Positions 1,732 through 22,164 of a DNA stretch of 64,000 nucleotides are shown here, in pieces. The stretch is from Verrucomicrobiota bacterium (GTDB lineage Bacteria; Verrucomicrobiota; Verrucomicrobiia; Limisphaerales; JADLHS01), in contig JAKQDQ010000042.1 of the NCBI GenBank assembly GCA_029573725.1, positions 126,777 through 190,776 of the forward strand. Reading direction: 5' to 3'. The notes below the pieces were generated by a model. The model ran no database searches, had not been told where the DNA came from, and saw only the letters and a list, made by a program, of their open reading frames with translations. Every line of letters starts with the position of its first letter. Positions within the stretch are counted from its first letter, which is position 1. A program made the translations under genes and the position numbers.

Positions 1732-1874
1732 GATCAATTTGTCCGGTTTGTCTGCTCTGGCACGGGACGGCATGATGGGTTAATCCCCAACGAAGAGCAA
1801 TCCCCAGTTCACCGGGGCGGGAACCTCAACGCGCCGCAGGGGGAGACCGCGCCTTCCCGGAACTCCACCGGCAT

Positions 1875-2633
1875 TCAACCCGCAATGATGACTTCGATGC
1901 CCTGGTCGCGCAATTGCGTGGCCAGATCGGCCGGCGCCTGGCTGTCCGTGACGATGGTGTGGACACGGGCCAGATCGCTGAGCGGTGAAACGGAGCGGCG
2001 CCCGAATTTGGTATGGTCCAGACACATGATCACTTTGGCGGCGGCGCGCATCATGGCGCGCTGAATGTCAATCAATAATCCGTGCGAGTTGGTCAATCCA
2101 TCGAGGGTGATACCCCCGGCGCTCATGATGGCGACGTCCGCGTGGATTTTGGCGAAGGTTTCCACCGCCAGCGGCCCCACCAACACACCAAGCCGGGGGT
2201 AGATCACCCCGCCGCTCACGATGACTTCCACGCGGCCGGCGGCGGAGTAGAGGTTCGCGACGGGCAGGGAATTGGTGACAATCTGCGGGGATTTTTCTTC
2301 GAGGTATTTTGCCACGCAAAAAGTGGTGGAGCCGGCGTCAATAATGACACTTTGGTTGGGTTTGATCAGTCCCGCGCAGGCACGGCCAATCGCTTCCTTG
2401 GCCTCCAGTTGATACGTCTCGCGCGTGGAGAATGCAAATTCGTCAGTCTTGGGGACAACGATCCGCGCTCCACCATGAGTGCGCCTTACCGTGCCCGCCG
2501 CTTCAAGAACAGTCAGATCGCGGCGAACGGTGGAAACTGAGGAGCCGACGAACTTGGCCAAATCTTCCAACGAAGCAAACTCAACCTGCTGAAGATATTC
2601 CTCCAGTCGGTGTTTCCGTTCATCTGCCGTCAT
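1875..2633 (-). CDS. DeoR/GlpR-family transcriptional regulator
   Basis: The protein has 252 residues. Residues 1-57 form the DeoR winged helix-turn-helix, with the recognition helix SSVSTVRRDLTVLEAAG followed by the wing TVRRTHGGA. The rest is the DeoR C-terminal sensor domain, including the IIDAGSTTF phosphosugar-binding loop. Family members are usually repressors released by phosphorylated sugars. The gene is transcribed away from the BMC operon across a 72-bp gap, so it is the obvious candidate regulator of that operon, with a sugar phosphate such as fuculose or rhamnulose phosphate as possible inducer (inference). A short inverted repeat in the gap could be its operator. Confidence 0.92.
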   Translation of the reverse strand: MTADERKHRLEEYLQQVEFASLEDLAKFVGSSVSTVRRDLTVLEAAGTVRRTHGGARIVVPKTDEFAFSTRETYQLEAKEAIGRACAGLIKPNQSVIIDAGSTTFCVAKYLEEKSPQIVTNSLPVANLYSAAGRVEVIVSGGVIYPRLGVLVGPLAVETFAKIHADVAIMSAGGITLDGLTNSHGLLIDIQRAMMRAAAKVIMCLDHTKFGRRSVSPLSDLARVHTIVTDSQAPADLATQLRDQGIEVIIAG

Positions 2634-2642
2634 TTCGGCTCT

Positions 2643-2707
2643 ATTCTGATAGATATTGGAAGATTTTGCAATATTTTAGTTGACGTTTGGGTGAAAACAG
2701 TCAGAAT
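2643..2707. promoter_or_regulatory. Candidate divergent promoters and DeoR operator for the BMC locus
   Basis: The gap between the regulator and pduL is AT-rich compared with its surroundings. On the plus strand TTGACG (2680-2685) is followed after 16 bp by CAGAAT (2702-2707). On the minus strand TTGCAA (2666-2671) is followed after 17 bp by the same CAGAAT (2643-2648 complement). The two -10-like boxes make a 7-bp inverted repeat, ATTCTGA at 2643-2649 and TCAGAAT at 2701-2707. If the plus promoter is real, transcription starts near 2714 and translation of pduL from the ATG at 2718 becomes more likely than from 2706. Confidence 0.35.
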
Positions 2708-3395
2708 GATTCACGTTATGGCTGTTGCTGCGCCCGTACCCCATCGAGCCGTTATCGAGCATCTGGTTCGTCAGGCGGTTTACTCGCGCCTGGGCAAACG
2801 CCTCCCGCGTACGGCCACCGCTCCCAATCCACTCGTTGTGAACATCAGCGCCCGGCATTGTCATCTGACCGAAGCAGCGGTGGAGCAGTTGTTCGGCAAG
2901 GGGCACCAGCTCACGGTGCACAAGTGGTTGTACCAGGAAGGGCAGTTTGCGGCGAAGGAGACCGTGACGTTGATCGGGCCGCGCAGCCGGGTGATTTCCA
3001 ACCTGCGCATTCTCGGTCCGTGCCGCAGCTTGAATCAGGTGGAGCTGTCCTATACGGACGCGATTGCGCTGGGTTTCGAAATTCCACTGCGCTTGTCGGG
3101 AAACATTGCAGGGACACCGGGGGCGATGTTGATGGGGCCGTCGGGATTTTTTCAAATGAGCCAGGGGGTCATTCGCGCGCTGCGCCACGTTCACCTGAGT
3201 CCGGCGGACGCGGAATTTTACGGGGTGCGGAACGGCGACGCGTTGAAGTTGAAGATTGGCGGAGATTGCGGAATCACACTCGACCGGATGCTGTGCCGTG
3301 TGGATCCGGGTTTCAAGTTGGAGGTGCATATTGACACGGATGAAGGCAACGCCTGCAACCTGCAACCGGGCACACCGGTGGAGCTCTTGAAGTGA
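2706..3395 (+). CDS. pduL: PduL-type phosphate acyltransferase of the microcompartment
   Basis: The protein has 229 residues from the ATG at 2706; the ATG at 2718 is the main alternative. It matches the PduL family: ISARHCHLT is the first zinc-binding region, followed by IGPRSRVISNLRILGP, GTPGAMLMGPSG, the second histidine motif RHVHLSPADAEFYG and a C-terminal DTDEGNAC. The family converts acyl-CoA plus phosphate to acyl phosphate and CoA and so recycles CoA inside the shell. The first 20-25 residues (PHRAVIEHLVRQAVYSRLG) form an amphipathic helix typical of PduL encapsulation tags. It is the first gene of the BMC operon and works between the aldehyde dehydrogenase and acetate kinase encoded downstream. 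Confidence 0.93.
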   Translation: MIHVMAVAAPVPHRAVIEHLVRQAVYSRLGKRLPRTATAPNPLVVNISARHCHLTEAAVEQLFGKGHQLTVHKWLYQEGQFAAKETVTLIGPRSRVISNLRILGPCRSLNQVELSYTDAIALGFEIPLRLSGNIAGTPGAMLMGPSGFFQMSQGVIRALRHVHLSPADAEFYGVRNGDALKLKIGGDCGITLDRMLCRVDPGFKLEVHIDTDEGNACNLQPGTPVELLK

Positions 3396-3516: not shown

Positions 3517-3804
3517 ATGAGTGAAGCATTAGGCATGATTGAAACCAGGGGCTACGTCGGCAGTGTGGAGGCCAGCGATGCCATGGTCAAAGCGGCCAAC
3601 GTGACGTTGGTCAAAACGGTGCCCATTGGCGGCGGCTTGATTACGGTTCTCGCCAAGGGCGATGTGGGCAGCGTCAAAGCGGCGGTGGACGCCGGGGCGA
3701 AAGCGGCCGCCAAGGTCGGCGAACTGGTCAGTTCCCATCTCATCGCGCGTCCGCACGAGGATTTGTTGAAGGCGTTCATCAACGCCGGGGCCGCCGCCAA
3801 ATAA
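3517..3804 (+). CDS. BMC-H hexameric shell protein (first)
   Basis: The protein has 95 residues, the normal length of a single-domain BMC-H protein (Pfam BMC fold). The start [20 protein letters not shown], the central [17 protein letters not shown] and the end [10 protein letters not shown] are the canonical family segments. Six copies form a hexameric tile with a central pore, and the tiles make the facets of the shell. No clear Shine-Dalgarno sequence is visible; an A-rich stretch precedes the ATG. It is followed after 27 bp by a second BMC-H gene. Confidence 0.97.
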
Positions 3805-3831: not shown

Positions 3832-4110
3832 ATGGCACAGCAAGCAGTGGGAATGATCGAGTGCAAGGGACTTTGCGCGCTGATGGAAGCGTGCGACGCC
3901 GCCCTTAAAGCCGCGAACGTCACGATGACCGGCTGGGAAAAGATCGGCAGCGGCTACGTCACCGGATTCTTCCGGGGGGATGTGGCCGCGGTCAAAGCCG
4001 CCACCGACGCCGGGGCCGCCGCCGCCGCGCAGGTGGGGCAGGTGATCAGCGTCCAGGTCATTCCGCGGCCCCACGACGATCTCGGAATCCTGGGCAAGTG
4101 GTTGCAATAG
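3832..4110 (+). CDS. BMC-H hexameric shell protein (second)
   Basis: The protein has 92 residues with the BMC fold: [20 protein letters not shown] at the start, [19 protein letters not shown] in the middle and VIPRPHDDL near the end. It differs from the first BMC-H around the pore-lining segment ([13 protein letters not shown] instead of [13 protein letters not shown]), so pore chemistry may differ. AAGGA stands 7 nt before the ATG, the clearest ribosome binding site among the shell genes. It is followed by acetate kinase. Confidence 0.97.
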
Positions 4111-4180: not shown

Positions 4181-5371
4181 GTGAAAATTCTCGTCGCCAA
4201 CATTGGCAGCACTTCGCTGAAGTGGCGGTTGTTCGATTTTGCGAACAACGCGGAGTGCCTCCTGCACAAAGGCGGTTTCGAACGGGTGGCGGATTATCCG
4301 CAGGCGATTGAGGGCTGTTTGACGCAGCTCAAGGAGGCCGGCGCACTGGCCAGCGAGAGCGAACTCGCGGCCGTGGGGTTCAAAACGGTGATTGCCAAAA
4401 ACGTCACCGGCTGTGTGCGGCTGGATGAAACCGTGCTGGCCGCGATGGAAGCGCATCGCGCACTGGCCCCGGCGCATAATCCACCTTACATCACCGGCAT
4501 CCGCCTGTTTGGGAAGCGCGTGCCGCAGATTCCGCTGGTGGGATTGTTCGAGACGGCGTTTTATCAGTTCGCCCCCGAAGCAATGATGCGTTATGCCGTG
4601 CCCGCCGCCTGGCTCGACATCGGGGTGCGCCGCTGGGGCTTTCATGGCGCCAGTCACAAGTACATTGCGGAACGTTCCGCGGAACTACTGGGGCGGGACG
4701 ATGTCGCCGCGCGCGCGCGCCAGCTGTATGTCAACGGGGGCGGGACGCCGGTCAATGACCCGCCATTGCGGGTGATTTCGTGCCACCTGGGCGGCAGTTC
4801 GAGCATCACCGGGATCTGCAATGGCGTGGCGATTGGCACGAGCATGGGGATGAGTCCGCAATCGGGGTTGCCGCAAAACAATCGCGTCGGCGATCTGGAT
4901 GCAGAGGCCCTTCCCTACGCGGTCAAAACGCTCGGGATCACCCTGGAGGAAGCCCAACGTCAACTCACCCGGGAATCCGGCTTGCAGGGTTTGAGCGGCA
5001 TCTCGAACGACATGCGCGACGTGGCGGCGGCGGCGGGGCGGGGGAATGCCGCCGCCCAGCTGGCCGTGGAAGTGTTTGTGGCGAGCGCCCGGCACTGGAT
5101 GGGCAGCTACTTTTTTGAGATGGGCGGCGCGGATGCGATTGTGTTCACCGGCGGCATCGGCGAAAACCGCGCCGAGGTTCGCCGGGCCATTTGCGCGAAT
5201 CTGACCGGATTGGGCATCGAGCTGGATTCCACCTTGAACCAGGCGCTGCCGGCGGGCGAAGCGACGATCAGCACCGCCCGTTCCCCGGTCAAGCTCATGG
5301 TCATCCCCACCAACGAAGAGCTCGTGGTGGCGCGGGAAACCAAACGGTTATTGGAAGCAACGAGCAACTGA
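4181..5371 (+). CDS. ackA: Acetate/propionate-type kinase of the BMC locus
   Basis: The protein has 396 residues, the usual AckA length, from a GTG at 4181. The N-terminus ILVANIGSTSLKWRLFDF is the acetokinase phosphate motif, normally NxGSSSxK. RRWGFHGASHKYIAER, ISCHLGGSSSITGICNG, DTSMG-like GTSMGMSPQSG and the ATPase motif FTGGIGENRAEVRR are all present. The enzyme converts acyl phosphate and ADP to the free acid and ATP. In this operon the acyl phosphate would come from PduL, probably lactyl or propionyl phosphate rather than acetyl phosphate (inference). I see no encapsulation tag, so it may act in the cytosol. It sits between shell genes, which argues for a dedicated BMC enzyme. Confidence 0.93.
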   Translation: MKILVANIGSTSLKWRLFDFANNAECLLHKGGFERVADYPQAIEGCLTQLKEAGALASESELAAVGFKTVIAKNVTGCVRLDETVLAAMEAHRALAPAHNPPYITGIRLFGKRVPQIPLVGLFETAFYQFAPEAMMRYAVPAAWLDIGVRRWGFHGASHKYIAERSAELLGRDDVAARARQLYVNGGGTPVNDPPLRVISCHLGGSSSITGICNGVAIGTSMGMSPQSGLPQNNRVGDLDAEALPYAVKTLGITLEEAQRQLTRESGLQGLSGISNDMRDVAAAAGRGNAAAQLAVEVFVASARHWMGSYFFEMGGADAIVFTGGIGENRAEVRRAICANLTGLGIELDSTLNQALPAGEATISTARSPVKLMVIPTNEELVVARETKRLLEATSN

Positions 5372-5404: not shown

Positions 5405-5686
5405 ATGCCTCAAGCAATTGGACTCATTGAAACGCGCGGACTGGTGGCCCTCGTCGAGGGCACGGACGCAATGCTGAAAGCGGCCAACGTGGAACTCGTC
5501 GGGCCCATGACCCAGGTCGGCAACGCCCTGGTGACGGCCTGTGTGGTGGGTGACGTGGCCGCGGTCAAAGCCGCCACGGATGCCGGCGCCCAAGCCATCA
5601 AAGCCATCAAGGGCGAAGTGGTCAGCGTGCATGTCATTGCGCGTCCGCACAGCGACGTGGAAGCGGTGCTGCCCAAAAAGAAGTAG
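5405..5686 (+). CDS. BMC-H hexameric shell protein (third)
   Basis: The protein has 93 residues and a single BMC domain: [20 protein letters not shown], then [17 protein letters not shown], and [14 protein letters not shown] at the end. The pore-region segment ([18 protein letters not shown]) again differs from the other two BMC-H proteins. It comes 33 bp after acetate kinase, separated from the first two BMC-H genes by that enzyme. With the other two it gives three distinct hexamers, and no tandem-domain BMC-T gene is present in the window. Confidence 0.97.
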
Positions 5687-5775: not shown

Positions 5776-6087
5776 ATGTTTTTGGCCAAAGTCGAAGGCT
5801 CGGTGGTCGCGACCAAGAAGGACGCGTCCATGAGCGGACGCAAACTGCTCCTGCTCCGGCCGCAACTGGTGGACGAAAAGAATCCGGCCCAGTTTCGCCC
5901 CGGCACCAACACCATCGTGGCGGTGGACGCGCTGGGCGCGGGCCTGGGCGAGATGGTGATGTTCACGCAGGGCAGTTCGGCGCGGCTGGCGCCGGGCATG
6001 AAGGATGCCCCGGTGGACGCCGTGATCATCGGCATCGTGGACAGCGTGGATGTGTTGGGCAAACAAATTTTCAGCGCGAAGGTTTGA
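5776..6087 (+). CDS. BMC-P (EutN/CcmL) pentameric vertex protein (first)
   Basis: The protein has 103 residues with the EutN/CcmL signature: LAKVEGSVVATKKDASMSG at the start, VAVDALGAGLGEMVMFTQGS in the middle and DAVIIGIVDSVDV near the end. Pentamers of this family cap the twelve vertices of the icosahedral shell. It is one of three BMC-P genes in the operon. The gene stands 89 bp after the third BMC-H and 132 bp before the aldehyde dehydrogenase. Confidence 0.96.
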   Translation: MFLAKVEGSVVATKKDASMSGRKLLLLRPQLVDEKNPAQFRPGTNTIVAVDALGAGLGEMVMFTQGSSARLAPGMKDAPVDAVIIGIVDSVDVLGKQIFSAKV

Positions 6088-6219: not shown

Positions 6220-7719
6220 ATGAGTACCGTAAATGAAACGTTGATTCGCGATGTGGTGGCCGAGGTGCTTGGCCGGCTGGGCGGCAGCTCAACGGCGACG
6301 CGAGCCGTCACCCCCGAGCCGCCTCCGGCCGGAGCCGGAACGTCCACTCCGCGTCCCGCACGGACGGGCACCCCGGCGTTGCGCGGCAAGTTTGGCGTGT
6401 TCGCCACGGCGGACGAGGCGTGTGCCGCTGCCCAGGAAGCGTTCTTGTTGCTCCGGGAACAAGGCATTGCCGCCCGGCGCAAGATTGAAAACATTGTCAA
6501 AACCCTGGCGGAGCGGAATGCGGCGGTCTGGGGCAAACTGGAGCTGGAGGAAACGCGGATTGGGCGGCTCGATCACAAGATAGAAAAATTAAAAATCATC
6601 CGGTTGGTGCCGGGGGTGGACTGGCTGCGTCCAGAGGCGCTGAGCGGGGATCACGGCATCACACTGGAGGAATTCACTCCGTTTGGTGTGGTGGGCGCGA
6701 TCACGCCGAGCACCCACTCAATTCCCACATTGAGCGGCAACATTGTCAACATTGTGGCGGCAGGCAATGCGGTGGTGTTCAATCCGCATCCCGGTGCAGC
6801 ACGGTGCGCCGCCACGGCGGTGCGGGCCTATAACGAGGCGATTTATCATGAAACCGGCATCGAGAACATCGCGTGTCTGGTGGAGAAACCAACGCTGGAA
6901 TCCTTCGCGGCGCTGTGTCAGAACGCACATACCAAACTGCTGCTCGTCACCGGCGGACCGGGCGTGGTGAAGGCCGCCATGCAGACCGGCAAGCGCGCCA
7001 TCTGCGCCGGTCCGGGCAATCCTCCGGTGCTGGTGGACGACACCTGCTGCGCCACCCGCGCGGCCAGGGCGATCATCGCCGGAGCGGCGTTCGACAACAA
7101 TCTGCTCTGCATCGGCGAGAAGGAGGTGTTTGTGCTGGACAGTGTGGCGAACAAGTTGATGCAGCGCCTGGCCGAGCACGGCGCGGTGAAATTGAGCGGG
7201 GCGCAACTGGAAAAACTGACCCAGGCGGCCTTCACCATCAAACCGGGGCAGGGTGGGGGATGCGCACATGCCAGCGTCAACAAGGAATTCATTGGCCAGG
7301 ACCCCGTCGTGCTGGCGCAGGCGGCCGGCGTCAATGTGCCCGCGGGAACGCAATTGTTGTTTGCCGAGACGCCCGCCGACCATCCGTTCGTGCAAGAGGA
7401 ACAAATGATGCCGTTTCTGCCGCTCGTGCGGGTGAGAAATGTGGCCGAGGGCATCCAGCTGGCCGTGCAGGCCGAACACGGCTACCGCCATACCAGCGTG
7501 ATTCATTCGCACGATGTGGAGCACATGACCGCCATGGCGCGCGCGTTGGATACCACGCTGTTCGTAAAGAACGGGGCTTCCCCGGCGGGACTGGGCCTCG
7601 GGGGTGAAGGCTATCTGAGTTATTCAATCGCCACGCCAACCGGTGAAGGGGTGACCAATCCGCGCACCTTCACCCGCGTCCGGCGGTGCGTGATGGTGGA
7701 CAATCTGCGGATTTATTGA
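6220..7719 (+). CDS. CoA-acylating aldehyde dehydrogenase with N-terminal encapsulation helix
   Basis: The protein has 499 residues and belongs to the BMC-associated ALDH group (PduP/EutE-like). Cys297 in DNNLLCIGEKE is the expected catalytic thiol, and GAITPSTHSIPTLSGNIVN and HPGAARCAATAV are cofactor and structural regions. The first 20 residues (ETLIRDVVAEVLGRLGG) form an amphipathic helix and are joined by a Pro/Thr/Ala linker to about residue 53, the layout of N-terminal encapsulation peptides. The predicted reaction is oxidation of lactaldehyde (or propionaldehyde) with NAD and CoA to the acyl-CoA, which PduL then uses. It is the core enzyme of the compartment and is followed after 7 bp by a BMC-P gene. 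Confidence 0.94.
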   Translation: MSTVNETLIRDVVAEVLGRLGGSSTATRAVTPEPPPAGAGTSTPRPARTGTPALRGKFGVFATADEACAAAQEAFLLLREQGIAARRKIENIVKTLAERNAAVWGKLELEETRIGRLDHKIEKLKIIRLVPGVDWLRPEALSGDHGITLEEFTPFGVVGAITPSTHSIPTLSGNIVNIVAAGNAVVFNPHPGAARCAATAVRAYNEAIYHETGIENIACLVEKPTLESFAALCQNAHTKLLLVTGGPGVVKAAMQTGKRAICAGPGNPPVLVDDTCCATRAARAIIAGAAFDNNLLCIGEKEVFVLDSVANKLMQRLAEHGAVKLSGAQLEKLTQAAFTIKPGQGGGCAHASVNKEFIGQDPVVLAQAAGVNVPAGTQLLFAETPADHPFVQEEQMMPFLPLVRVRNVAEGIQLAVQAEHGYRHTSVIHSHDVEHMTAMARALDTTLFVKNGASPAGLGLGGEGYLSYSIATPTGEGVTNPRTFTRVRRCVMVDNLRIY

Positions 7720-7726
7720 GTGCGCG

Positions 7727-8005
7727 ATGCGTCTGGCCAGAGTGGAAGGCAACCTTGTGGCGACCCGGAAACATCCGAGTCTTGAAGGCTGGCGCCTGGT
7801 GATCTGCCAACCGGTCAATGCTGCCGGCCAGCGCGAGGGGCCGCCACAGGTGGCCATTGACGCGCTCGGCGCCGGCATGCACCAGCAGGTGGTGATTTCA
7901 TCGGACGGCTCGGCGGCGCGCCAGGCGGTCGGCGACGACCAGAGTCCGGTCCGCTGGCTGGTGATCGGCATCGTGGATGAGCGCGAACCAGGAGTGCGCG
8001 TGTGA
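7727..8005 (+). CDS. BMC-P (EutN/CcmL) pentameric vertex protein (second)
   Basis: The protein has 92 residues: LARVEGNLVATRKHPSLEGW, then AIDALGAGMHQQVVISSDGS and LVIGIVDE near the C-terminus. This is the full EutN/CcmL fold. It begins 7 bp after the aldehyde dehydrogenase and overlaps the next BMC-P gene by 4 bp (GTGA), so the two are probably translationally coupled and made in similar amounts. Confidence 0.95.
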   Translation: MRLARVEGNLVATRKHPSLEGWRLVICQPVNAAGQREGPPQVAIDALGAGMHQQVVISSDGSAARQAVGDDQSPVRWLVIGIVDEREPGVRV

Positions 8006-8307
8006 AACTGGGAACAGTCATCGGCCGCGTCACGTTGAGCAAAACCGTCAAAGCGTTCGAGGGCGGACGATTTTTGGTCGTGAGTCCGTTTTCGCGCGAG
8101 CAATACGCCGCGGGGCTGGCGGCGCCGTCCCGCATGGGCAGCGAACCAAGCCTCGTGGTGTACGATGCGCTCGGTGGCGGGATGGAACAGGTGATCGGCT
8201 ACGTCGAAGGTCGCGAGGCGGCCCAGCCGTTTGCCGTGCCGACACCGGTGGACGCCATCAATGTCGCGCTGGTGGACGACCTGTTTTACCGGCCGTGGCC
8301 GGGTTGA
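8002..8307 (+). CDS. BMC-P (EutN/CcmL) pentameric vertex protein (third)
   Basis: The protein has 101 residues from a GTG at 8002, chosen because it overlaps the stop of the preceding BMC-P by 4 bp. LGTVIGRVTLSKTVKAFEG, VVYDALGGGMEQVIGYVEG and VDAINVALVD mark the EutN/CcmL fold. It has a longer loop after strand 2 (SREQYAAGLAAPSRMG) than the second copy. Three paralogous pentamers in one locus is the arrangement known from the planctomycete/verrucomicrobial BMC type. Confidence 0.94.
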   Translation: MKLGTVIGRVTLSKTVKAFEGGRFLVVSPFSREQYAAGLAAPSRMGSEPSLVVYDALGGGMEQVIGYVEGREAAQPFAVPTPVDAINVALVDDLFYRPWPG

Positions 8308-8329: not shown

Positions 8330-9385
8330 ATGAAAAATGTCATCAGCTTGAAGGATGTGGAGCGGCTGCAGCGCGAGGGGCGGAGTCTGAGCAGCCTGCC
8401 GGAAGATGCCCTCTTAACACCTTCGGCGCGCGATTTTCTCAACGACCTCCGCTCGGTGGTCCCGCAGCCACCGGTCCCGCCCCCACCCGCCGCTGCGGCG
8501 GCCGAACCCGTTGCCCCGGAAAAGCCGATCCACGCCCAATCTTCCCGGGCGGAACTGGAGGCATTTTTCCACTCGCCATACGCGCAGGCTCTCAAGGAGC
8601 AGATTTGCGAAATGGGCCGGCGCCTGTGGCAACGCGCCTACGTGGATGGCAATGGCGGCAACATGGCGATTCGCGTCGGCGCGGATGTGGCCATTTGCAC
8701 CCCGACACTGGTGAGCAAGGGGGCGCTGAAACCGGAGGACCTGTGCCTGGTGGATTTTGAGGGACATCAACTTCTCGGCACCAAGAAGCGCACCAGCGAA
8801 ATCCTCATGCACTTGCAAATCATGAAACGACAGCCCAAGGCGGTGGCCACGTGCCATTGTCATCCGCCCTACGCCACGGCGTTTGCGGTGGCAAACGTGG
8901 CGCCCCCGACCTGTCTGCTGCCCGAGTTCGAGGTGTTCTGTTCGGTGGGGGTGGCGCCCTACCGCACTCCGGGCACGGCGGACATGGGCAAACTGGTGGC
9001 GGATTTGACGGAGCAATACAACACGATCCTCATGGCAAATCACGGCGTGGTGACCTGGTCGCACAACCACCTCGAGGAAGCCTACTGGCGCATGGAGATC
9101 GTGGAAGCGTACTGCCGCACGATTGTGGTGGCCGGCCAGCTCGGGCATCCCGTCAACACCTTCACCGGGTCCCAAATGAAGGATTTGCTGAACATCAAAC
9201 AAAAACTGGGTTTCGTGGACCCGCGTTTCGAGATGAAGGAATGTGAACTTTGTGACGCCGGCGAGTGGCGGCCCGGCGCCACCTGCACCGTGCCGCGTCC
9301 TGCGGCGGCGGACCCCGATTTCGATCCGGAGGCGGAACGCGCCGTTCAGGCCATTACGGAGCAAATTCTGGCCCGGTTGAAATGA
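8330..9385 (+). CDS. Class II (zinc) aldolase, fuculose/rhamnulose-phosphate aldolase type, with N-terminal tag
   Basis: The protein has 351 residues from the ATG at 8330, preceded by GAAGAAGAG. The catalytic domain (about 70-300) is the class II aldolase/adducin fold: the Zn ligands come from CHCHPPYATAF and from MANHGVVTWS, and DGNGGNMAIRVG is the phosphate-site loop. Before it lie a helical segment (residues 1-43) and a Pro/Ala linker (about 44-65), which look like an encapsulation module. Family members cleave L-fuculose-1-phosphate or L-rhamnulose-1-phosphate to DHAP and L-lactaldehyde. That fits lactaldehyde as substrate of the neighbouring dehydrogenase. Sequence cannot say which sugar is preferred. 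Confidence 0.88.
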   Translation: MKNVISLKDVERLQREGRSLSSLPEDALLTPSARDFLNDLRSVVPQPPVPPPPAAAAAEPVAPEKPIHAQSSRAELEAFFHSPYAQALKEQICEMGRRLWQRAYVDGNGGNMAIRVGADVAICTPTLVSKGALKPEDLCLVDFEGHQLLGTKKRTSEILMHLQIMKRQPKAVATCHCHPPYATAFAVANVAPPTCLLPEFEVFCSVGVAPYRTPGTADMGKLVADLTEQYNTILMANHGVVTWSHNHLEEAYWRMEIVEAYCRTIVVAGQLGHPVNTFTGSQMKDLLNIKQKLGFVDPRFEMKECELCDAGEWRPGATCTVPRPAAADPDFDPEAERAVQAITEQILARLK

Positions 9386-9509
9386 GCGCTGGCCGTTTAC
9401 CTGGGGCGGGTGGCCGCCCCCGATGGACAGGGCGGGTGGGGCGGCCGGCCCCGATCCTGACGCCTCCGCCGTCCGCCGATGGGTAATGCTCCGGCGCGTA
9501 ATCTTTTTC

Positions 9510-10757
9510 ATGAAATCACTCGACGCAAAACTTGCTGAAATCAGGGCCCGCCGCAATTCGCGCGCGTTTATTCTCGCGGATGCGAAGGATGCGGACATGG
9601 CGTATGGCGTGCGCGCCACCGGCCCGCGTTCCTATCTGGCACGACGGGGCGCGCGCCCCGCGCAATTCTCGCCGGAAGTCTGGACGCGGGAGGAATTTGG
9701 TTTCCGCAATCTGCCGGAATTCCTCGACATCATCCGCGAGGTGACGCACCAGGGACTGGTGGACATCATGTTGATGTCGGCGTATGTGAACGAGCAACTC
9801 ACCATCAAGGAAGGGCTTTTTCAGAACTCCCACGTCACCCCGGCCGCGCGCGCGAATGACACCACGGATGTGTGGGCCGCCCGGCACGGTTGTTACATGG
9901 GAGAGGCTTCACAACCGTTTCGCTCGGCCAGCATTGATCATATTCAATGTGGCGAAGTGGCGTGCGACCGGAGTGGTGGAAAGGATTTTCCCGGGGCCAA
10001 TCTCGGATTGTATTCGATCACCTACGTCAATGACCTGGAGCAGGACCGCGAGGCGTTGCTGGCCTACAAGGAATTCCGCGAAGAAGCCGAACGGAAGGGG
10101 TTCCGGCATTTTCTCGAAGTGTTTGATCCCAACGTGGACAGCGGGATTCCTGCGGAAAAATTGGGGGAATTCGTCAATGACAATATTCTGCGGACGCTGG
10201 CAGGGGTGCCGGATGCGGGGCGTCCCCTGTTCCTGAAGGTGGTTTATCACGGCCCGCGTGCCATGGAGGAGCTGTGTCAATACGACCCCAACATGGTGGT
10301 GGGTATCATGGGGGGCGGCGCCGGCACGACCTACGACGCCTTCAAATTGATTCACGACGCGCAAAAATACGGGGCGCGAGCCGCCCTGTTCGGCCGCAAA
10401 ATCAATCAGGCCGAGCATCAGCTCGCGTTTATTGAGATGCTGCGCTTGATTACGGACGGGCAGATCGGCCCCGAAGAGGCTGTGCGCGCCTACCACGGGG
10501 TGTTGCAGGGCAAGGGCATCCAGCCGCACCGCTCCCTGGCGGAAGATCTGCAACCCACCGCGCAGTCCATGAACTATGCCGGCACCGTTCCGGCATCCGG
10601 CAGGCGGAGCGACCCGCCTGCCAGCGCCGCCGCGCGGCCTCCAGGAACGGGCGGGGCGGTGGCCGACTGGCCGCGACGGGCGGACGGTTCACCGGACTTT
10701 GCCCGGATGAATTCGCAGCAACGGCTGGCTTACGATCAGGCGCGGCTGCAGCTTTGA
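9510..10757 (+). CDS. Class-I-like (DeoC/FbaB superfamily) aldolase homologue with C-terminal helical tag
   Basis: The protein has 415 residues from the ATG at 9510. The core (to about 350) resembles Schiff-base aldolases: FLKVVYHGPRAMEELCQYDP carries a candidate catalytic lysine (K243), and GIMGGGAGTTYDAFKL with GARAALFGRKI looks like a phosphate-binding end of a TIM barrel. A Pro/Ala/Gly/Ser linker (about 356-392) leads to a 20-residue helix-like end (DFARMNSQQRLAYDQARLQL), which has the form of a C-terminal encapsulation peptide. It is the last gene of the BMC operon. The assignment is from motifs only; the reaction is unknown and might be a second sugar-phosphate cleavage or a DHAP-linked step. 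Confidence 0.7.
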   Translation: MKSLDAKLAEIRARRNSRAFILADAKDADMAYGVRATGPRSYLARRGARPAQFSPEVWTREEFGFRNLPEFLDIIREVTHQGLVDIMLMSAYVNEQLTIKEGLFQNSHVTPAARANDTTDVWAARHGCYMGEASQPFRSASIDHIQCGEVACDRSGGKDFPGANLGLYSITYVNDLEQDREALLAYKEFREEAERKGFRHFLEVFDPNVDSGIPAEKLGEFVNDNILRTLAGVPDAGRPLFLKVVYHGPRAMEELCQYDPNMVVGIMGGGAGTTYDAFKLIHDAQKYGARAALFGRKINQAEHQLAFIEMLRLITDGQIGPEEAVRAYHGVLQGKGIQPHRSLAEDLQPTAQSMNYAGTVPASGRRSDPPASAAARPPGTGGAVADWPRRADGSPDFARMNSQQRLAYDQARLQL

Positions 10758-10759
10758 AA

Positions 10760-11716
10760 TCAGCGCACGCCCGCTTCGTCGAGCCGCAATTCGCCGCGGT
10801 TGGCGTCCAGGGTGGCGCGGGCGCCCACCGGCAAGGTGGCATTCATGGCCACATGACCGAAAGGGAGTCCCGCCACCACCGGGATGTTCAACGGCCGCAG
10901 GCGCTCGCAGAAAACCTCCTCCAGGGTCTGACGATATTCCCCCGCGGTTTGAGCGCGGGGATCCTGGCAGCGGGCATTAAGTCCGATTGCCACGCCGGCC
11001 ACCTGTGGCAGGAGCCCGCAGTTCAACAGCTGGGTCAGCATGCGATCCCAGCGATAGGGCACCTCCCCGACGTCTTCAAGAAACAAAATCGTGTTCTTGA
11101 AGTCCGGCAGCCATCGGGTGCCGATGAGCGTGTTCAGGATGGTGATGTTTCCCCCGATGAGCCGGCCGCGCGCGATGCCGCGCCGCAAAATTTTCACCGT
11201 CCGGCCCGCGTAACCGGTGGCGATGTCGCCTGGCGGCGCCGGAGAAGTGAGGGTGCGCAAGAAACTTTGCACGGTGAACGCGGGCAGTCGTTTGAGGGCG
11301 AAGTCGGAATTCAACATCGGTCCGTGAAAGGAGACCAGTCCCGCCCGGGTGAGAAAGGCGCCGTGCAGCGAGGTGATGTCGCTGTAGCCGATGAAAATTT
11401 TGGGATTGGCGCGGATCAGGGGATAATCCAACCGCGACAGCAATCGCGCCGTGCCGTAGCCGCCCCGGACACAAATGATCGCCTGCACCTTCCGGTCGGT
11501 AAACATCCGCATGAGGTCGCCGGCGCGGTCGCGGTCCGAGCCGGCGAGGAAGCCGAGGCGTTGATGCACCTTGGGGGCGAGCTTGGTGCGGTAGCCGAGG
11601 CGTTCCAGCACGGCAATGGCGCGGTCCACATTCTTCGGATCCGGCGGAGCGCTGGCGGGGGCAACCACGCCCAGGGTGTCACCGGGATGCAGGCGGGGGG
11701 GATAAAGCAGTTTCAT
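10760..11716 (-). CDS. ldcA: LD-carboxypeptidase (peptidase family S66)
   Basis: The protein has 318 residues, normal for LdcA. Conserved elements are the start RLHPGDTLGVVAPASAP, the loop CVRGGYGTARLL, the nucleophile segment FIGYSDITSLHGAF with the catalytic serine, the glutamate region GGNITILNTLIGT and the histidine region GLPFGHV near the C-terminus. The enzyme removes the terminal D-Ala from murein tetrapeptides in peptidoglycan recycling. It ends only 2 bp from the convergent BMC operon and starts 39 bp after the chemosensory operon on the same strand, so read-through from that operon is possible. Confidence 0.9.
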   Translation of the reverse strand: MKLLYPPRLHPGDTLGVVAPASAPPDPKNVDRAIAVLERLGYRTKLAPKVHQRLGFLAGSDRDRAGDLMRMFTDRKVQAIICVRGGYGTARLLSRLDYPLIRANPKIFIGYSDITSLHGAFLTRAGLVSFHGPMLNSDFALKRLPAFTVQSFLRTLTSPAPPGDIATGYAGRTVKILRRGIARGRLIGGNITILNTLIGTRWLPDFKNTILFLEDVGEVPYRWDRMLTQLLNCGLLPQVAGVAIGLNARCQDPRAQTAGEYRQTLEEVFCERLRPLNIPVVAGLPFGHVAMNATLPVGARATLDANRGELRLDEAGVR

Positions 11717-11755: not shown

Positions 11756-14317
11756 TTAGATCTGCGGATCAAAGGAAGGTTTTTTCTGGTCGTGCAATCC
11801 GAGCAGGAGCACTTTGGTCTGGGTGAAAATTGATTCCAGCTCCTGAATCAGCTTCATGGCGCCATAGACCTCGCCCGAGTGGCCCAGGTCCTCAAGTTTC
11901 TGGCATAATTCCGCGAGCCGCCGGGCGCCCATGTTCAGGCTCATGCTCTTCAACGCATGAGCGTGAAAGGCGAGCTGGACCGGGGTCTCGGCGGATTGCA
12001 CCAGTTGTTTGATGTGAGTCGGGGCGGTGTCCAAATACAGACTGATCAGTTCGCTCAACATGCTGTCCCCGCCGGTGGAGGGCATTTCGCGGAGATCGGC
12101 GATGATGCCCTCGTCAAGCAGTCCCGGGGTCAGCGACTCGGGGTTGCGCATGAAATACTTGGTGTCATACTTCACGGCCTTGGTGGGGCCCCAGCGCTCG
12201 AGGATGGCTTGCAAATCCGCCACGCGCACCGGTTTCGAAATGTAATCATCCATGCCGGCGGCGAGACATTTTTCGCGATCGCCGATCAGGGCGTTTCCCG
12301 TCATGGCCACGATGACCGGGCGTTTGTCGCGGGTCCAGCGCTCGCAGATGCGGCGGGTGCATTCGTAACCGTCCATTTCGGGCATTTGCACGTCCAGAAA
12401 AAGCACGTCGCAGGGCTGCTGTTCCAGCACCTTGAGGACTTCGGCCCCGTTGGTGGCCAGCCCGGCTTGATAGCCCAGTTTGTTGAGGACGCTGATGCCG
12501 ACCTTTTGATTGATCGGATTGTCATCCGCCAGCAGAATACGCAGCGGCAATCGGCGCGCAAAATCGGAGTCGAGTCCCGGAGTAAACGGAGTTTTTCGGT
12601 CGTGTTCGGCGCGCACGCCCAGCAGACGGCAGAGCATCTCCAACAGCTGGGCCGGCCGGATGGGTTTGTGGAGGTAGCTGGCTTCGGTCATTCCCGCAGC
12701 GTGGAGATCCTCGGTGCGCAGCCGGGCCGGAGAGAGCAGGAGCAGGGGACGCGGCTTCCGGGACGGCAGTTTTTGAATCTCGCGCGCCAGGGCAAAGCAG
12801 TCCATGCCGGGCAGGTGCGAATCGAGCAGCACGGCGCCATACTCAACCGGTTCGCGCAGCAGGGTGAGCACCTTGTCCGCCGTGTCGGCCACGGTGACCT
12901 GCATGCCCCAGGTTTCCAGCCGTTGCCGGAGAATGCGGGCGCTGCCGGCGCCGTGTTCGGCCAGGAGCACGGATGTGCCGGTGAGTTGCCGCTGCTTTCC
13001 CACCCAGGCGGGCGGTGTGACCGTGGCCGCGCCCTGGACAAGAATGGTGAAATGAAAGGTCGCGCCCGCGCCCGCGTCGCTGTCCACCCAGATGCGTCCG
13101 CCCATCAATTCCACGAGGCGCTTGCTGATTGCCAGCCCCAGCCCCGTCCCGCCGAAGTGCCGCGTGGTGGAGGCGTCCACCTGGTGAAAGGACTTGAACA
13201 GCCGATGCTGCTTGTCCAACGGAATGCCGATGCCGGTGTCACGCACGCTGAAGTGCAGCAACCATTCCTCCCGGCTGACCGTGGTGCCGTCGGTGTCGCC
13301 GTCCATTTCCCGGATGGCGGCCGTGGCGGGACTCACTTCCACCACCACTTCGCCCGCCGGGGTGAATTTCACCGCATTGCTGAGCAGGTTGACCAGAACC
13401 TGGCGCAGCCGGGTCATGTCGCTGACGACGATTTTCGGCAGCGAATCGTCCACGACATAAACCAGGTCCAGCCGTTTCTCCGCGGCCTTGGGGGCCAGCA
13501 GTTCCAGCGCATCCTCCACGCAGCCGTGCAGCTCAAACGGATGATGGTCGAGTTCCAGTTTGCCCGCCTCGATCTTGGAGAAATCCAGAATGTCATTGAT
13601 GATGGTCAGCAGGGCGTCGGCGCTGGTGCGCACGCCTTCCACGTATTCCCGCTGTTCCTCGGACAGGTCCGTGTCGAACAGCAACGAGATCATGCCGACC
13701 ACGCCATTCATCGGGGTGCGGATTTCGTGGCTCATGTTGGCGAGAAACTCGGACTTCGCGAGCGTGGCCTCCTCAAGTTTTTGGTTCAAGGCCAGCAATT
13801 GCGAGTTGCCGTTGACCAGTTGTTGCTGGCTCTCCCGCAACGCGCGATAGGCGGCGTCCCGCTGGATCTGATTGAGGTAGGCGCGGGAGTGATAGCGGAT
13901 GCGCGCCAGCAACTCCAGGCGGTCCGGCAACTTGACCAGGTAATCGTTGGCGCCGAGGCTGAACGCCTGCCCCTTGACCTGGGGATTCTCGTTGGTGCTC
14001 AGGACGATGATCGGAATCTCCCGGGTGACGGGATGGGCGCGGAATTGCGTGACAAGACTCAACCCGTCAATGCCCGGCATCACCAGGTCCTGGAGAATCA
14101 CCGTGGGGCGCAACTGCGTCGCCAGGGCGACGGCCTCGCGCGCGTCGGCGCAATAATGGAAATCAATGTCCGGTTCACTGATGAGTGCCCGGCGGATGGC
14201 CTCACATACCATGGCCTGATCGTCCACCAGCAGCACCATGACGTGATAATCCGGGAGCTGGGGAAACGTGAGGCCGCTTCCGCCGGAGACGGGATGTTCA
14301 GTGCGTTCGGTGGCCAT
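11756..14317 (-). CDS. Hybrid histidine kinase with WspR-like receiver (REC-HK-REC-REC-HPt), output of the Wsp-like system
   Basis: The protein has 853 residues. Residues 26-150 are a receiver (acidic pair D32/D33, acceptor D77 in [13 protein letters not shown]), and the following linker RIRYHSRAY...[11 protein letters not shown] closely resembles the WspR receiver-stalk as I know it. In place of GGDEF comes a histidine kinase: H197 in [11 protein letters not shown], then an ATPase domain with DTGIGIPLD and [16 protein letters not shown]. Next are a degenerate receiver lacking the acidic pair, an intact one ([11 protein letters not shown] and [13 protein letters not shown]) and an HPt domain (H787 in HAHALKSMS). 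It overlaps the wspF homologue by 20 bp and takes the genomic place of wspR. It should pass WspE phosphorylation into a phosphorelay; the final acceptor is not in the window. Confidence 0.93.
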
Positions 14318-15350
14318 GAGTTTGACTCAAAATAGAAATGAGGCGCGGCGCGATTTTGTCCAGCGCTAAAATCTCCCGGGCGGCCTGCAACTCCACCGCT
14401 GCCTTGGGCATGCCGTACACCGTGCTGCTGAGCCGGTTTTGCGCAATCGTATGATGTCCCGCTTCGCGCAAAGCCTTCAAGCCCTCGGCTCCGTCGCGTC
14501 CCATCCCTGTCAGCAGGATGCCGGCAGTCATACCCGGCCAGTGCCGTGCCACGCTGTGAAAAAACACGTCCACGGAAGGACAGTAGGCGCTCTGGTGGGG
14601 CTGCAGGGAGTAGCTCAACCGCGTTCCGCTGGACATCACAAGATGCTGGTTGCGCCCGGCGAGGAAGACGCGCCCCGGCTCCACCCGGTCGCCCTCGGCC
14701 ACGACGCGCACGGGCAGCCGGGCGCGGGACGCCAACCACTCCGCCAGGCCGGCGGCAAACTGTTGGTCCACATGCTGCACGACCACGATGGCCGCAGGGA
14801 AGGTGGCTGGCAAGCCGGCAAGAATGGCCGTCAGCGCCGCCGGACCACCCGCAGATGCGCCAATGACCACCAGTTTCCCGGGCTGGTCCGGCGCGCGCGC
14901 TCCCGTTGGCGGCAGAACGGCCCGGATGGTTTTGGCGGACTTGGGCGACCGGGTTGCCCCCAACAGTTTTTCAATCGTCTGGATTTTGGCCAGCAACATG
15001 GCGACGCCCTTTGACGATGCCGCTCCGGCAAGGGGGGGGACATCCACCGCGTCCAGCGCGCCGGCCCCCATCGCGGCGAAGACCTGGGAGATGTGATCTT
15101 CAACTCTGGCCGTTGCCACGACGATGGCGCAGGGAGTCCTGGCCATGATTTGCCGGGTGGCTTCAATGCCGTTCAACCGTGGCATGAACAAATCCATCAA
15201 GATAAGGTCGGGGCAGGCATTTTCGCAGCGGGCGACCGCTTCCGCGCCGTCCCTGGCCACCCAGAGGACCTCGTGTTTGGTGTGCGTGTTGATGCTGCGC
15301 CGCAACGCTTCCGCGGCGAGAACCAGATCGTTGGCAATGCCGATTTTCAC
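14298..15350 (-). CDS. wspF: WspF-like CheB protein-glutamate methylesterase
   Basis: The protein has 350 residues: a receiver (acceptor D53 in [12 protein letters not shown]), a linker, and a C-terminal methylesterase domain with the triad regions [15 protein letters not shown] (Ser), [17 protein letters not shown] (His) and [11 protein letters not shown] (Asp). It demethylates receptor glutamates and resets adaptation. The start overlaps the CheA stop by 4 bp (ATGA), and its end overlaps the hybrid kinase. The order after wspE and before the output gene matches wspF. Confidence 0.93.
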
Positions 15351-17635
15351 TGGTTCGCCTCCCCGATGAGGTCGGCCACCGCCTGGATCAGGGTTGCGTC
15401 CTGGAAACTGCCCTTGGTCAGATAATAGTCCGCCCCCGCATTGAGGCCGCGCAGGCGATCCTCCTCGCGGTCCTTGTAGGACACAATCATGACGGGCGTG
15501 AGTTTCAGGCGTTCTTCCTGTTTAATCAGGATGGTCAGCTCGATGCCGTCCAGCCGGGGCATGTCCACGTCGGTGATCACCAGATCGTAACTCCCCGCCC
15601 GCACCGCGTTCCATCCATCCATGCCATCCACGGCGACGTCGGCGGCATACCCCGCCGCTTCCAGCAGTTTCCGTTCGAGTTCACGTACGGTCAGTGAATC
15701 TTCCACGACGAGGATGCGTTTCTCGCGGTGGCCGGCGGCCGGTAGAAGGGCCGGGGGAATGGCGGTGTGCCGCCCGCTCGCAACAAATTTGTCGATGCTG
15801 CGCAGTAAATCCTCCACGTCCACGATCAATACCGGCGCACCATCATCCATCAGCGCGGCCGCACTGATGTCCTTGATTTTCCCAAGCCGCGGATCCAGCG
15901 GTTGCACGACCAGCTCGCGTTCGCCGAGGAACCGATCCACTTGCAGGCCGTAGCGTTGATTGGCGGCGCCCAAAACAACCAGGGCCAGTTCCTCGGCCTG
16001 ATCCTCCACCGGAAACGACACGTCCAGAATTTGCTGCGCATTGACCAGACCGATGTGCTGATCGCCCTGGCGGAAATGCGGCTGGCCTTCCAGGGACAAA
16101 ATCCGGTCACGCGACAGCTTGAGGCTGTTCACAATTTGCGTCAGGGGGAAGGCGTAGGGTTCGCCGCCGATTTCCACCAGCAAGGCGCGAAAGACCGAAA
16201 GGGTGAGCGGCAGTTGCAGCTGGATGCGCATGCCGCGGCCCTTCAAGGTGGAGACGCGGACACTGCCGCGGACACTGCGGATCATGGTCTGAACGATGTC
16301 GAGGCCCACCCCGCGCCCGGAGATTTCCGTGACCGTTTTCCGCAGGGTGAAACCCGGCAGGAACAGGAACTGCAACAACTCGGGTTCGCTCATTTTCTCC
16401 ACTGCGGAAGGCGCGATGAGCTTGCGGTGGTTGATGGCGTCACGGACCTGTTGGGCGTCCAGGCCGGGACCGTCATCGGTCAGGGTGATTTGCAACATGC
16501 CGGCGCTGTGCCGCGCTTCCAGCCGGATGGTCGCTTCCGCCGGTTTGCCTTGCTCCAGTCGCAGCGCGGGCGGTTCGGTGCCGTGATCCACCGCGTTGCG
16601 CAGCAGATGCGTCAACGGCGCTTCGAGCCGTTCCAGAATATCCCGATCCACCTGCGTGTTCTCGCCGAGAATTTCAAAGCGGACTTGTTTCCCCAGGCTT
16701 TGGGCAAGATCGCGCACCATCCGGGGGAAATGCCGGACGCCGTCGCCAAAGGGACGCATGCGGGTGCGCAACGCCTCCAGATACAGCCGATTGGCCAGTT
16801 GTGCGGTGCGGCGTTCATGTTGATCCAGTTCCTGCAGGCGTTCCTCCAGCTGACGCGCCAATTCGCGTGTCTGTTGCGCGGCACTGGCCAGCTCCTGCGG
16901 GGCCGGTGAGGGCGCCGAAGGGGCCCGGTGCTGCAAACGGTGCAGCGTCGCTTCGAGCTCCGTATGCTGGCGTTTGAGGCGTTGCAGCTGCGCGGTGAAC
17001 GGACGCAGCCAGCGGGATTCGACCAGCGTCTCGCCGGCCAGCGCCAGCAGCCGGTTCAGGTTCTCTGCCGACAATCGCAAATAGCGCTCAACCGCCTCGG
17101 CGGATTCCGCACTCCTGGTGGTGGGCGTTATTTCCGCGCTGCGGAAGTGCGTGGTATCCCCGCTGGCCGGAACGCTGGAAATTTTGATGGGCGGGAAGGC
17201 GTCGGAGGGCGTTTCGATGATTGCCCGGACTTCCCGGCGCCACTGCTCCAGCGGCGCCTGGTGCCGCTGCTCCCAGGTGACCAGGCCCTGGTCGTCCTGT
17301 TTGCCCAGGTCCGCGAGCCAGTCCACACCGCGCAGGAGTATGTTGATGTGCGCCTGGCAGGGGGTCAGCCGGTTTTTCTGGGCGGCGACGAAATAGTCCT
17401 CCAAGCCGTGGGCTACCGCGATGCCGGCTTCCAGGTTGACGATGCGCGCCGCGCCCTTGTAGGAGTGGGCGGCGCGCATGAGCGCTTCCAGTTGTTCCGT
17501 CGTCGCCGGGGCCCGTTCCAACGCCAGGAGGCCTGCGCTTAACAACGCCGTCTGGCTTTCGGCCTCGGTGCGGAACAATTCCAGCATCGAGAGGTCCTCC
17601 ACGGCGCGCGCTTTCGGTGGCTCGGATTTCTTCAT
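15347..17635 (-). CDS. wspE: WspE-like hybrid CheA kinase
   Basis: The protein has 762 residues from the ATG at 17635, preceded by GGAG; a TTG at 17695 is less likely. Domains in order: HPt with phospho-acceptor H57 in RAAHSYKGAARI, a charged coiled-coil linker and dimerisation part, HATPase_c (LLRNAVDHGTEPPALR, TDDGPGLD, GRGVGLDIVQTMI), a CheW-like domain, and a C-terminal receiver (VVEDSLTVRELERK, ITDVDMPRLDGIEL). No separate CheY-binding P2 domain is apparent. A CheA fused to a receiver is the WspE layout. It should phosphorylate both its own receiver, WspF and the downstream hybrid kinase. Confidence 0.94.
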   Translation of the reverse strand: MKKSEPPKARAVEDLSMLELFRTEAESQTALLSAGLLALERAPATTEQLEALMRAAHSYKGAARIVNLEAGIAVAHGLEDYFVAAQKNRLTPCQAHINILLRGVDWLADLGKQDDQGLVTWEQRHQAPLEQWRREVRAIIETPSDAFPPIKISSVPASGDTTHFRSAEITPTTRSAESAEAVERYLRLSAENLNRLLALAGETLVESRWLRPFTAQLQRLKRQHTELEATLHRLQHRAPSAPSPAPQELASAAQQTRELARQLEERLQELDQHERRTAQLANRLYLEALRTRMRPFGDGVRHFPRMVRDLAQSLGKQVRFEILGENTQVDRDILERLEAPLTHLLRNAVDHGTEPPALRLEQGKPAEATIRLEARHSAGMLQITLTDDGPGLDAQQVRDAINHRKLIAPSAVEKMSEPELLQFLFLPGFTLRKTVTEISGRGVGLDIVQTMIRSVRGSVRVSTLKGRGMRIQLQLPLTLSVFRALLVEIGGEPYAFPLTQIVNSLKLSRDRILSLEGQPHFRQGDQHIGLVNAQQILDVSFPVEDQAEELALVVLGAANQRYGLQVDRFLGERELVVQPLDPRLGKIKDISAAALMDDGAPVLIVDVEDLLRSIDKFVASGRHTAIPPALLPAAGHREKRILVVEDSLTVRELERKLLEAAGYAADVAVDGMDGWNAVRAGSYDLVITDVDMPRLDGIELTILIKQEERLKLTPVMIVSYKDREEDRLRGLNAGADYYLTKGSFQDATLIQAVADLIGEANQ

Positions 17636-17695
17636 TAACGGGCTCCGCTTGAGTTTACACGTCCTTGTTCGGCACGGGGTAATGGAAGTTGGCAA

Positions 17696-18724
17696 TCAGG
17701 ACAAATTCCGATTCAGCGAAGCCATCAGGGGTTCGGGATCAATCAGGCCGACGGTGTGCTGGCGCCAGGGAAAAATTCCGTGGGCGCAGTGCCGTCCGGC
17801 CTGAGTGAAGAGGCTGGGCGGTTTGCGCAGATCAGCGTTGTGGAACCGATGCACCCCGTGGACTTCGTCCACAGGAAACGCCACCCGCTGCCCGCGCCAT
17901 TGGGCGACGAGCAACCGTTCGTGCGGTTGGGTGTGAACCAGGGCGGCGGGCGGGGTTTCCAGGCCGAGCAGCCGGTTCAGCGCGGCGCAGATCAACAGTT
18001 CGCCCCGGATGTTGACGATGCCGAGCAACACCGTATGGCGGCGATGCGGGATGGTGTGCAGCGTCCGTCGCTCGGCGACTTCCTGGAATATTTCCGTCGG
18101 CAACGCGAGCCATTCCTTGAGCAGCCGGAAAATCACCACACTGGTTTTGGCCGGGGCCGCCACGTGTTTCTCCGGGGCGAAATGCAGGCTCCACTCGCGC
18201 CGGTAATCGGACGGAATGGGACGGTTCAGGAACTGGGATGCTGCCCGGGCATAGGTGGGGCAGTGGTTGCAATGACCGTACTGCGCAAGCTTCGTGCAGG
18301 AATGATTTCCGTAAACTCCCTCGTGATTCCAGCAATCGTCCTCCGGCGCCGGGTGATTGCCGGTTTGGGTGACGGGTTGGTGGAATGCCGGGGACTCCGT
18401 CGTCCCTGCCACTCGCGCCAGCGCACCTGCGCCGGACGCCGGCTCAATGTGGACAATTTCCGCTTCGACCCGGATGAAATGCTGGGTGCCGGGTTCATCC
18501 GGCATAGGGGCGGACGTCAGAACATTCAGGGACGGCTTTGGGGGTGGTGGCGGGGCGGCGGGGTTTATGGGCGCATTCGAAACGGTGACATAGTTTGCCG
18601 GCACCGGATCCTCAGCGGGCGGCGGTTCGGCCGCCAGCGCTTCCAATTCCGGGCGGGACAGGTGCTGCGTGCCCGGGGTGTCCGGCTTTGACGGGGCGGC
18701 GGGATCGGGTCTGGCGCGTTTCAC
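17696..18724 (-). CDS. wspD: WspD-like CheW adaptor with long disordered N-terminus and Cys/His motif
   Basis: The protein has 342 residues from a GTG at 18724, chosen because it overlaps the CheR stop by 4 bp (GTGA). The first 150 residues are Pro/Ala-rich and probably disordered, with TPGTQHLSRPE and EPGTQHFIRVE as a near-repeat. Then comes a short segment DDCWNHEG...NHSCTKLAQYGHCNHCP, whose Cys spacing recalls the N-terminal motif of WspD-type CheW proteins. The C-terminal CheW domain (GIVNIRGELLICAALNRLL, VAFPVDEVHGVHRF) bridges receptor and WspE. The long N-terminal extension is unusual for an adaptor. Confidence 0.85.
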   Translation of the reverse strand: MKRARPDPAAPSKPDTPGTQHLSRPELEALAAEPPPAEDPVPANYVTVSNAPINPAAPPPPPKPSLNVLTSAPMPDEPGTQHFIRVEAEIVHIEPASGAGALARVAGTTESPAFHQPVTQTGNHPAPEDDCWNHEGVYGNHSCTKLAQYGHCNHCPTYARAASQFLNRPIPSDYRREWSLHFAPEKHVAAPAKTSVVIFRLLKEWLALPTEIFQEVAERRTLHTIPHRRHTVLLGIVNIRGELLICAALNRLLGLETPPAALVHTQPHERLLVAQWRGQRVAFPVDEVHGVHRFHNADLRKPPSLFTQAGRHCAHGIFPWRQHTVGLIDPEPLMASLNRNLS

Positions 18725-20455: not shown

Positions 20456-20459
20456 GACT

Positions 20460-22067: not shown

Positions 22068-22164
22068 GAGCGCAGTTGGCTGAGGGGCATAATCAGGTCC
22101 GGCCGCCGGAAAAACAAGAAGGTTTGTTTCCCGTTCCGCCTGCGGTAGTCTGGGGGGGCCAACT

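Follow-up and report, generated by a model that had tools for sequence, protein, structure and literature searches.

A predicted class I aldolase with a clade-specific C-terminal tail closes a Planctomycetes-Verrucomicrobia microcompartment operon

Bacterial microcompartment (BMC) types are classed by one signature enzyme each, and Planctomycetes-Verrucomicrobia (PVM) organelles are taken to serve the use of L-fucose and L-rhamnose. Published descriptions link PVM loci to aerobic L-fucose and L-rhamnose use, their signature enzyme being a class II aldolase (PMC4207490, PMC8217296, PMC8857213). Two of these sources also describe microcompartments of the SPU type, in which a DeoC-type (PF01791) class I aldolase is the aldehyde-producing enzyme (PMC4207490, PMC8217296).

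The locus described here lies in a stretch of 64,000 nucleotides from a Verrucomicrobiota bacterium, the whole of which is called the window. It contains the full gene set of the described PVM microcompartment (Erbilgin 2014; Axen 2014; Sutter 2021), namely DeoR, PduL, AckA, an acylating aldehyde dehydrogenase (AldDH), three BMC-H proteins, three BMC-P proteins and the class II aldolase. The genes are arranged in the order DeoR (on the opposite strand), PduL, BMC-H, BMC-H, acetate-kinase family, BMC-H, BMC-P, AldDH, BMC-P, BMC-P and class II aldolase. The last gene of this complete operon is a further one, designated X (Table 1), in agreement with the microcompartment setting that a sequence-only reading had assigned to positions 9510–10757. 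By this additional predicted class I aldolase at its 3′ end, the window operon differs from the described PVM loci. The available sections of the PVM literature, supplements and the 2014 primary paper aside, make no mention of a class I aldolase in that place, and a full-text literature search, the 2014 paper again set aside, found no description of the X gene. The SPU type cited above likewise has a Schiff-base aldolase in a BMC. X differs from the SPU enzyme in that it has no PF01791 match and accompanies a class II aldolase instead of being the sole signature enzyme.

Among the 80 loci fetched, 62 have X after the class II aldolase, and in 58 of these the retrieved stretch contains a further BMC gene. 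A lactate/malate-dehydrogenase-like gene (cluster c15, present in 28 of the 80 loci) often separates X from the class II aldolase; it is missing from the window (9386–9509), which leaves the NAD+ recycling of the window operon without explanation. Inspection by eye placed a Gfo/Idh-type oxidoreductase upstream of the operon (610–1773, minus strand) and an LdcA-like carboxypeptidase directly downstream (10760–11716, minus strand). A chemotaxis-type cluster, also recognised by eye, adjoins the operon (11756–22313) and comprises response regulator/histidine kinases, CheB, CheA, CheW, CheR and a methyl-accepting protein.

Table 1. Features of the PVM operon and of X in the window (residue numbers of X in brackets).
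Feature	Position	Strand	Basis or remark
DeoR-family regulator	1875..2633	-	PF08220, PF00455
PduL-type phosphotransacylase	2703..3395, start codon provisional	+	PF06130
BMC-H shell protein	3517..3804	+	PF00936
BMC-H shell protein	3832..4110	+	PF00936
Acetate-kinase family	4181..5371	+	PF00871
BMC-H shell protein	5405..5686	+	PF00936
BMC-P shell protein	5776..6087	+	PF03319
CoA-acylating aldehyde dehydrogenase	6220..7719	+	PF00171; NCBIfam PRK15398, 586 bits, above cut-off
BMC-P shell protein	7727..8005	+	PF03319
BMC-P shell protein	8002..8307	+	PF03319
Class II aldolase, known PVM signature enzyme	8330..9385	+	PF00596
X, 415-aa class I (Schiff-base) aldolase-like protein	9510..10757	+	ORF, homologues, predicted fold
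Predicted barrel strand 1 of X (21-26), invariant D24	9570..9587	+	model, alignment
Predicted barrel strand 5 of X (199-205), invariant E203, candidate acid/base	10104..10124	+	model, alignment
Predicted barrel strand 6 of X (241-245), invariant K243, predicted Schiff-base lysine	10230..10244	+	model, alignment
GGGAGTT loop of X (268-274) after strand 7, predicted phosphate binding	10311..10331	+	model, alignment
G295-R296 of X after strand 8, predicted phosphate binding	10392..10397	+	model, alignment
Low-complexity linker of X (356-383), pLDDT under 50	10575..10658	+	model; variable among relatives
Conserved C-terminal tail of X (385-415; predicted helix 402-413), candidate encapsulation peptide	10662..10754	+	missing in tail-less relatives

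The reading frame of X is unbroken over its 415 codons. The start at position 9510, and not at 9423, is backed by the N-terminus MKSLDxKLAEI, which is kept in relatives, and the motifs FLKVVYHG, GGGAGTTYDAF and ALFGR were located at residues 241–248, 268–278 and 292–296, respectively. X is a genuine protein with conservation far beyond chance. The proposal that it represents an aldolase-like family without a curated model held up in the profile searches. No Pfam model matched the whole protein or any of its three pieces (E ≤ 1), and NCBIfam matches to class I aldolases (ADH synthase, LsrF and archaeal FBA) reached 14–20 bits compared to curated cut-offs of 241–430, which is far below family threshold. 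These weak matches (best E 4e-4) cover residues 243–328 only, confining the sequence likeness to Schiff-base aldolases to the second half of the protein as had been proposed, and residues 1–230 gave no NCBIfam match. A phmmer search of the PDB with X found no sequence, profile searches of the PDB yielded marginal LsrF matches only, and hhalign aligned X with LsrF exclusively over residues 248–334 (E 1.6e-4).

An AlphaFold model of X was built from 64 homologues (mean pLDDT 71). Its confidence is moderate, with pLDDT values under 50 at residues 28–65, 119–136 and 269–272. The model displays a TIM barrel with strands at residues 21–26, 86–89, 110–114, 165–171, 199–205, 241–245, 263–267 and 291–294. 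Residues 1–230, which the sequence-only reading had set apart as difficult to match, provide strands 1–5 of this same barrel and no separate part, and Foldseek and VIA-align matched residues 1–332 of the model to class I aldolases with Z scores of 18–20.6. The best structural match was the sulfohexulose-1-phosphate aldolase 8tnf (Z 20.6); LacD, ADH synthase, LsrF, archaeal FBA and YihT gave Z scores of 19–20 and eukaryotic class I aldolases about 18. Since structural Z scores within about 1 are tied, the fold does not pick a substrate.

Class I aldolases bear the Schiff-base lysine on strand 6. In the model of X this strand carries K243, which is invariant both in the 64-homologue alignment, along with more than 100 residues in all, and in 32 diverse members of the family, in which D24, D27, D29, E203, G268, G269, G272, T273, G295 and R296 are invariant as well. 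We take K203 of LsrF and K193 of YihT to be the lysines to which K243 should be compared. The gapless HMMER alignment offsets K243 by one residue from LsrF K203, and a one-residue gap would restore the register. Because this alignment is one residue off and the LsrF profile alignment starts at residue 248, K243 is equated with the LsrF lysine on the strength of the fold and of the K-x-x-Y motif. Residues G268, G269, G272, G295 and R296 of X align with the GG and GR of LsrF, and E203 is a candidate acid/base, its role being taken from class I aldolases. The predicted fold and the conserved site together make it very probable that X is a class I (Schiff-base) aldolase.

The profiles of the DhnA/LsrF/ADH-synthase/archaeal FBA aldolases are the sole sequence profiles matching X, and these class I enzymes share with it the barrel (Z about 19–20, predicted), the strand-6 lysine, the GG loop and the GR. 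In contrast to them, X has no Pfam match, resembles them in sequence over residues 243–334 only, and has a longer core, a linker and tail and different gene neighbours. LacD and the SFP aldolase YihT (with 8tnf) are the best structural matches (Z 19–20.6), and yihT, like X, clusters with an isomerase and a sugar kinase. However, LacD and YihT are 11–16% identical to X, hhalign found no significant alignment of X with either of them or with FbaB, the isomerase of the YihT cluster belongs to a different family, and a cargo tail is missing in both.

Relatives of X were detected in GTDB genomes as at least 585 related stretches. Members of the microcompartment clade carry about 60–90 extra C-terminal residues, which consist of a variable linker followed by a conserved tail with the consensus WPxxxDGxPDFxxMxSxqRxAYxxxRL. 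Tail-less relatives comprise about 330–350 residues and are 46–60% identical. Some reside on Rhizobiaceae plasmids, several being annotated there as hypothetical, and others belong to ordinary sugar operons of other Verrucomicrobiota, so that the family is not limited to microcompartments as had been assumed. A maximum-likelihood tree placed all 81 tail-form sequences on one side of a branch with support of 100/99; several long branches are present among the free forms, the order of which is unsure. The occurrence of X is sporadic (78 of 384 genomes of the class). PVM AldDH is present without X in many genomes, indicating that X is not needed for the basic PVM pathway. A shortened tail-less X of 229 amino acids (51% identical) was found on a contig filed as viral (IMG/VR IMGVR_UViG_3300048838_000939; L112:375–1061), which is likely host DNA or a prophage edge.

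Within the microcompartment clade 76 ORFs carry the tail motif, and none of the tail-less relatives does. Of 58 genomes from the order, 36 have it, each a single time, in frames fitting X or X fragments. All 15 genomes with a tail-bearing X outside the operon hold a PVM AldDH elsewhere (60–79% identical), and at each of the eight such AldDH loci inspected, BMC-H, BMC-P, AckA and class II aldolase genes adjoin AldDH. Tail-less X occurs in genomes with and without PVM. That it might exclude PVM was rejected, as 14 of 17 strong-match genomes of the phylum sample also contain PVM AldDH; thus, only the tail, and not X itself, tracks the organelle. Encapsulation peptides are terminal amphipathic helices, about 18 residues long, that follow a disordered linker of low conservation (PMC12339742). 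The linker and last helix of X resemble this general layout, but the helix is polar and not of the textbook hydrophobic kind; its hydrophobic moment is like that of the AldDH N-terminus and its mean hydrophobicity is low. The tail is likely a cargo tag that packs X into the PVM organelle.

The tail was also considered as a tag common to several cargos. This was not borne out, as no cargo other than X carrying it was found in the 58 genomes of the order or among the microcompartment-clade ORFs, and the sole other ORF with the tail (L018:10314–11279) is a duplicated scrap of X. In this otherwise unrelated ORF just downstream of X, the 3′ end of X including the tail is repeated, which looks like a local duplication.

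A PfkB/Khk-family kinase (17 loci) or a lyxose-isomerase-family gene (9 loci) was present within 2 kb of tail-less X in all 21 loci. Several of these loci contain, in addition, mannosidase-type genes (GH2 or GH38), an aldehyde dehydrogenase or a regulator of the DeoR family, and the order in Rhizobiaceae is ROK regulator, sugar ABC transporter, X and kinase. Six of the 15 off-operon tail-bearing X genes have PfkB/Khk-family kinase or lyxose/mannose-isomerase-family neighbours, while nine have neither on the fetched stretch. The neighbours shared by these six and tail-less X suggest that the microcompartment form works in the same pathway. Kinase and isomerase names are annotation only, PF25270 being labelled prokaryotic ketohexokinase; a physiological role has been shown for a haloarchaeal ketohexokinase (PMC11519228). 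The short PF07385 isomerase scored 135 bits, where the D-lyxose/D-mannose isomerase equivalog has a cut-off of 350.

Of the 78 X-bearing genomes of the class, 16 have a PF07385 gene no more than 2 kb away from X. This family is present in 26 of these 78 genomes compared to 24 of 306 without X, and Khk in 65 of 78 compared to 136 of 306, both differences being significant in Fisher's test, which ignores genome relatedness. As Khk-family genes are common without X (136/306), the family name proves little. The window genome contains a Khk-family gene (209 bits, cut-off 35) far from X; no PF07385 isomerase was found in it. The genes around X and its relatives speak rather for a substrate different from fuculose and rhamnulose phosphate, as the sequence-only reading had considered.

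Further arrangements were observed among the free forms. At L108 (6603–8081) the genes after tail-less X are those of an ordinary aldehyde dehydrogenase (PF00171), a lyxose-isomerase-family protein and a Khk-family kinase, a layout that would suit cytosolic oxidation of the same aldehyde in the absence of an organelle. The several copies of X in genome G228 lie in different clusters and could help to tell substrates apart; at two of its loci (L097 and L098) tail-less X is combined with a PfkB kinase, an isomerase weakly like SftI and a gene of the class II FBA family (PF01116).

Based on the predicted fold and the genomic setting, we consider it fairly probable that X is an encapsulated, active class I ketose-1-phosphate aldolase, which would open another sugar input in addition to that of the class II fuculose/rhamnulose-phosphate aldolase. 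An activity on a ketose-1-phosphate as such is, if anything, slightly better favoured. In this route, an isomerase of the lyxose/mannose-isomerase family would produce a ketose and a PfkB/ketohexokinase-family kinase would convert it to the ketose-1-phosphate, most simply D-fructose-1-phosphate or D-xylulose-1-phosphate as the likeliest substrate. K243 would form a Schiff base with the C2 ketone, and cleavage would yield dihydroxyacetone phosphate (DHAP) and a short hydroxyaldehyde, which would be D-glyceraldehyde from fructose-1-phosphate or glycolaldehyde from xylulose-1-phosphate. With X packed into the PVM shell by its C-terminal tail, the aldehyde would be handled inside by the same AldDH, PduL and kinase as the L-lactaldehyde from the class II aldolase and pass via acyl-CoA and acyl phosphate to the acid with a gain of ATP. 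The organelle would then have two aldolases and two sugar inputs.

X comes immediately behind the class II aldolase in 62 of 80 loci, and this type of locus is linked to fucose and rhamnose (PMC4207490, PMC8217296), which would also fit X as a class I isoenzyme for L-fuculose- or L-rhamnulose-1-phosphate. We regard this as unlikely, as the tail-less and the off-operon tail-bearing forms adjoin lyxose/mannose-isomerase- and ketohexokinase-family genes and not recognised fucose or rhamnose genes, and as many genomes with PVM AldDH do without X.

LacD and archaeal FBA rank among the top structural matches, which is consistent with a fructose- or tagatose-1,6-bisphosphate aldolase channelling DHAP back to hexose bisphosphate. 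Such a function seems improbable given the separate class II FBA of the window genome, by which X as sole FBA was rejected, the sporadic occurrence of X in the class and the linked sugar kinases, which would act upstream of an aldolase.

Cleavage of a sulfo-sugar phosphate of the 6-deoxy-6-sulfofructose-1-phosphate type to DHAP and sulfolactaldehyde appears less probable still. It would accord with the sulfohexulose-1-phosphate aldolase as top structural match, with E. coli yihS-yihV-yihT as a likewise composed cluster of isomerase, kinase and class I aldolase, and with the free locus L098, which combines a class II FBA-family gene with an isomerase weakly like the sulfoquinovose isomerase SftI (116 bits, cut-off 700). 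However, with Z scores within about 1 of each other, SFP aldolase, LacD and LsrF count as tied. In the loci examined, neither a sulfoquinovosidase nor a sulfolactaldehyde enzyme was recognised near X; the isomerase usually seen is of the lyxose/mannose type and the glycosidases are of the mannosidase type. Finally, a non-catalytic scaffold or assembly factor, an option raised earlier and suggested by the long linker, the conserved tail and the fixed operon place, is very unlikely because the putative catalytic and phosphate-binding residues (K243, D24, E203, the GG loop and R296) are invariant in microcompartment and free forms, tail-less relatives occur in sugar operons without a compartment and many PVM AldDH genomes have no X.

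Returning to X as an encapsulated ketose-1-phosphate aldolase, we propose that it belongs to an uncharacterised, unnamed family, one clade of which appears to have turned into a cargo-like accessory aldolase, the second in PVM organelles. A more far-reaching version, which we put forward only tentatively, is that the PVM organelles of a large Verrucomicrobiota lineage are two-input and house, next to the class II aldolase for deoxysugar phosphates, a hepatic-style ketohexokinase/aldolase route for mannose and fructose, in which X would split fructose- or xylulose-1-phosphate and reactive glyceraldehyde would be captured.

Many Verrucomicrobiota carry X beside, or together with, a fucose/rhamnose-degrading organelle, and X would probably let this organelle take a second sugar phosphate. 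If true, one shell and one aldehyde-oxidising core would serve different sugars by means of a further, unrelated aldolase that brings a cargo-like tail of its own, and the predicted diet of polysaccharide-degrading Verrucomicrobiota would be wider. It would also give a name to an enzyme family that has no Pfam model and is annotated as hypothetical in several plasmid records. The clade-specific tail, missing in the sister forms, would offer a natural test of enzyme recruitment into microcompartments.
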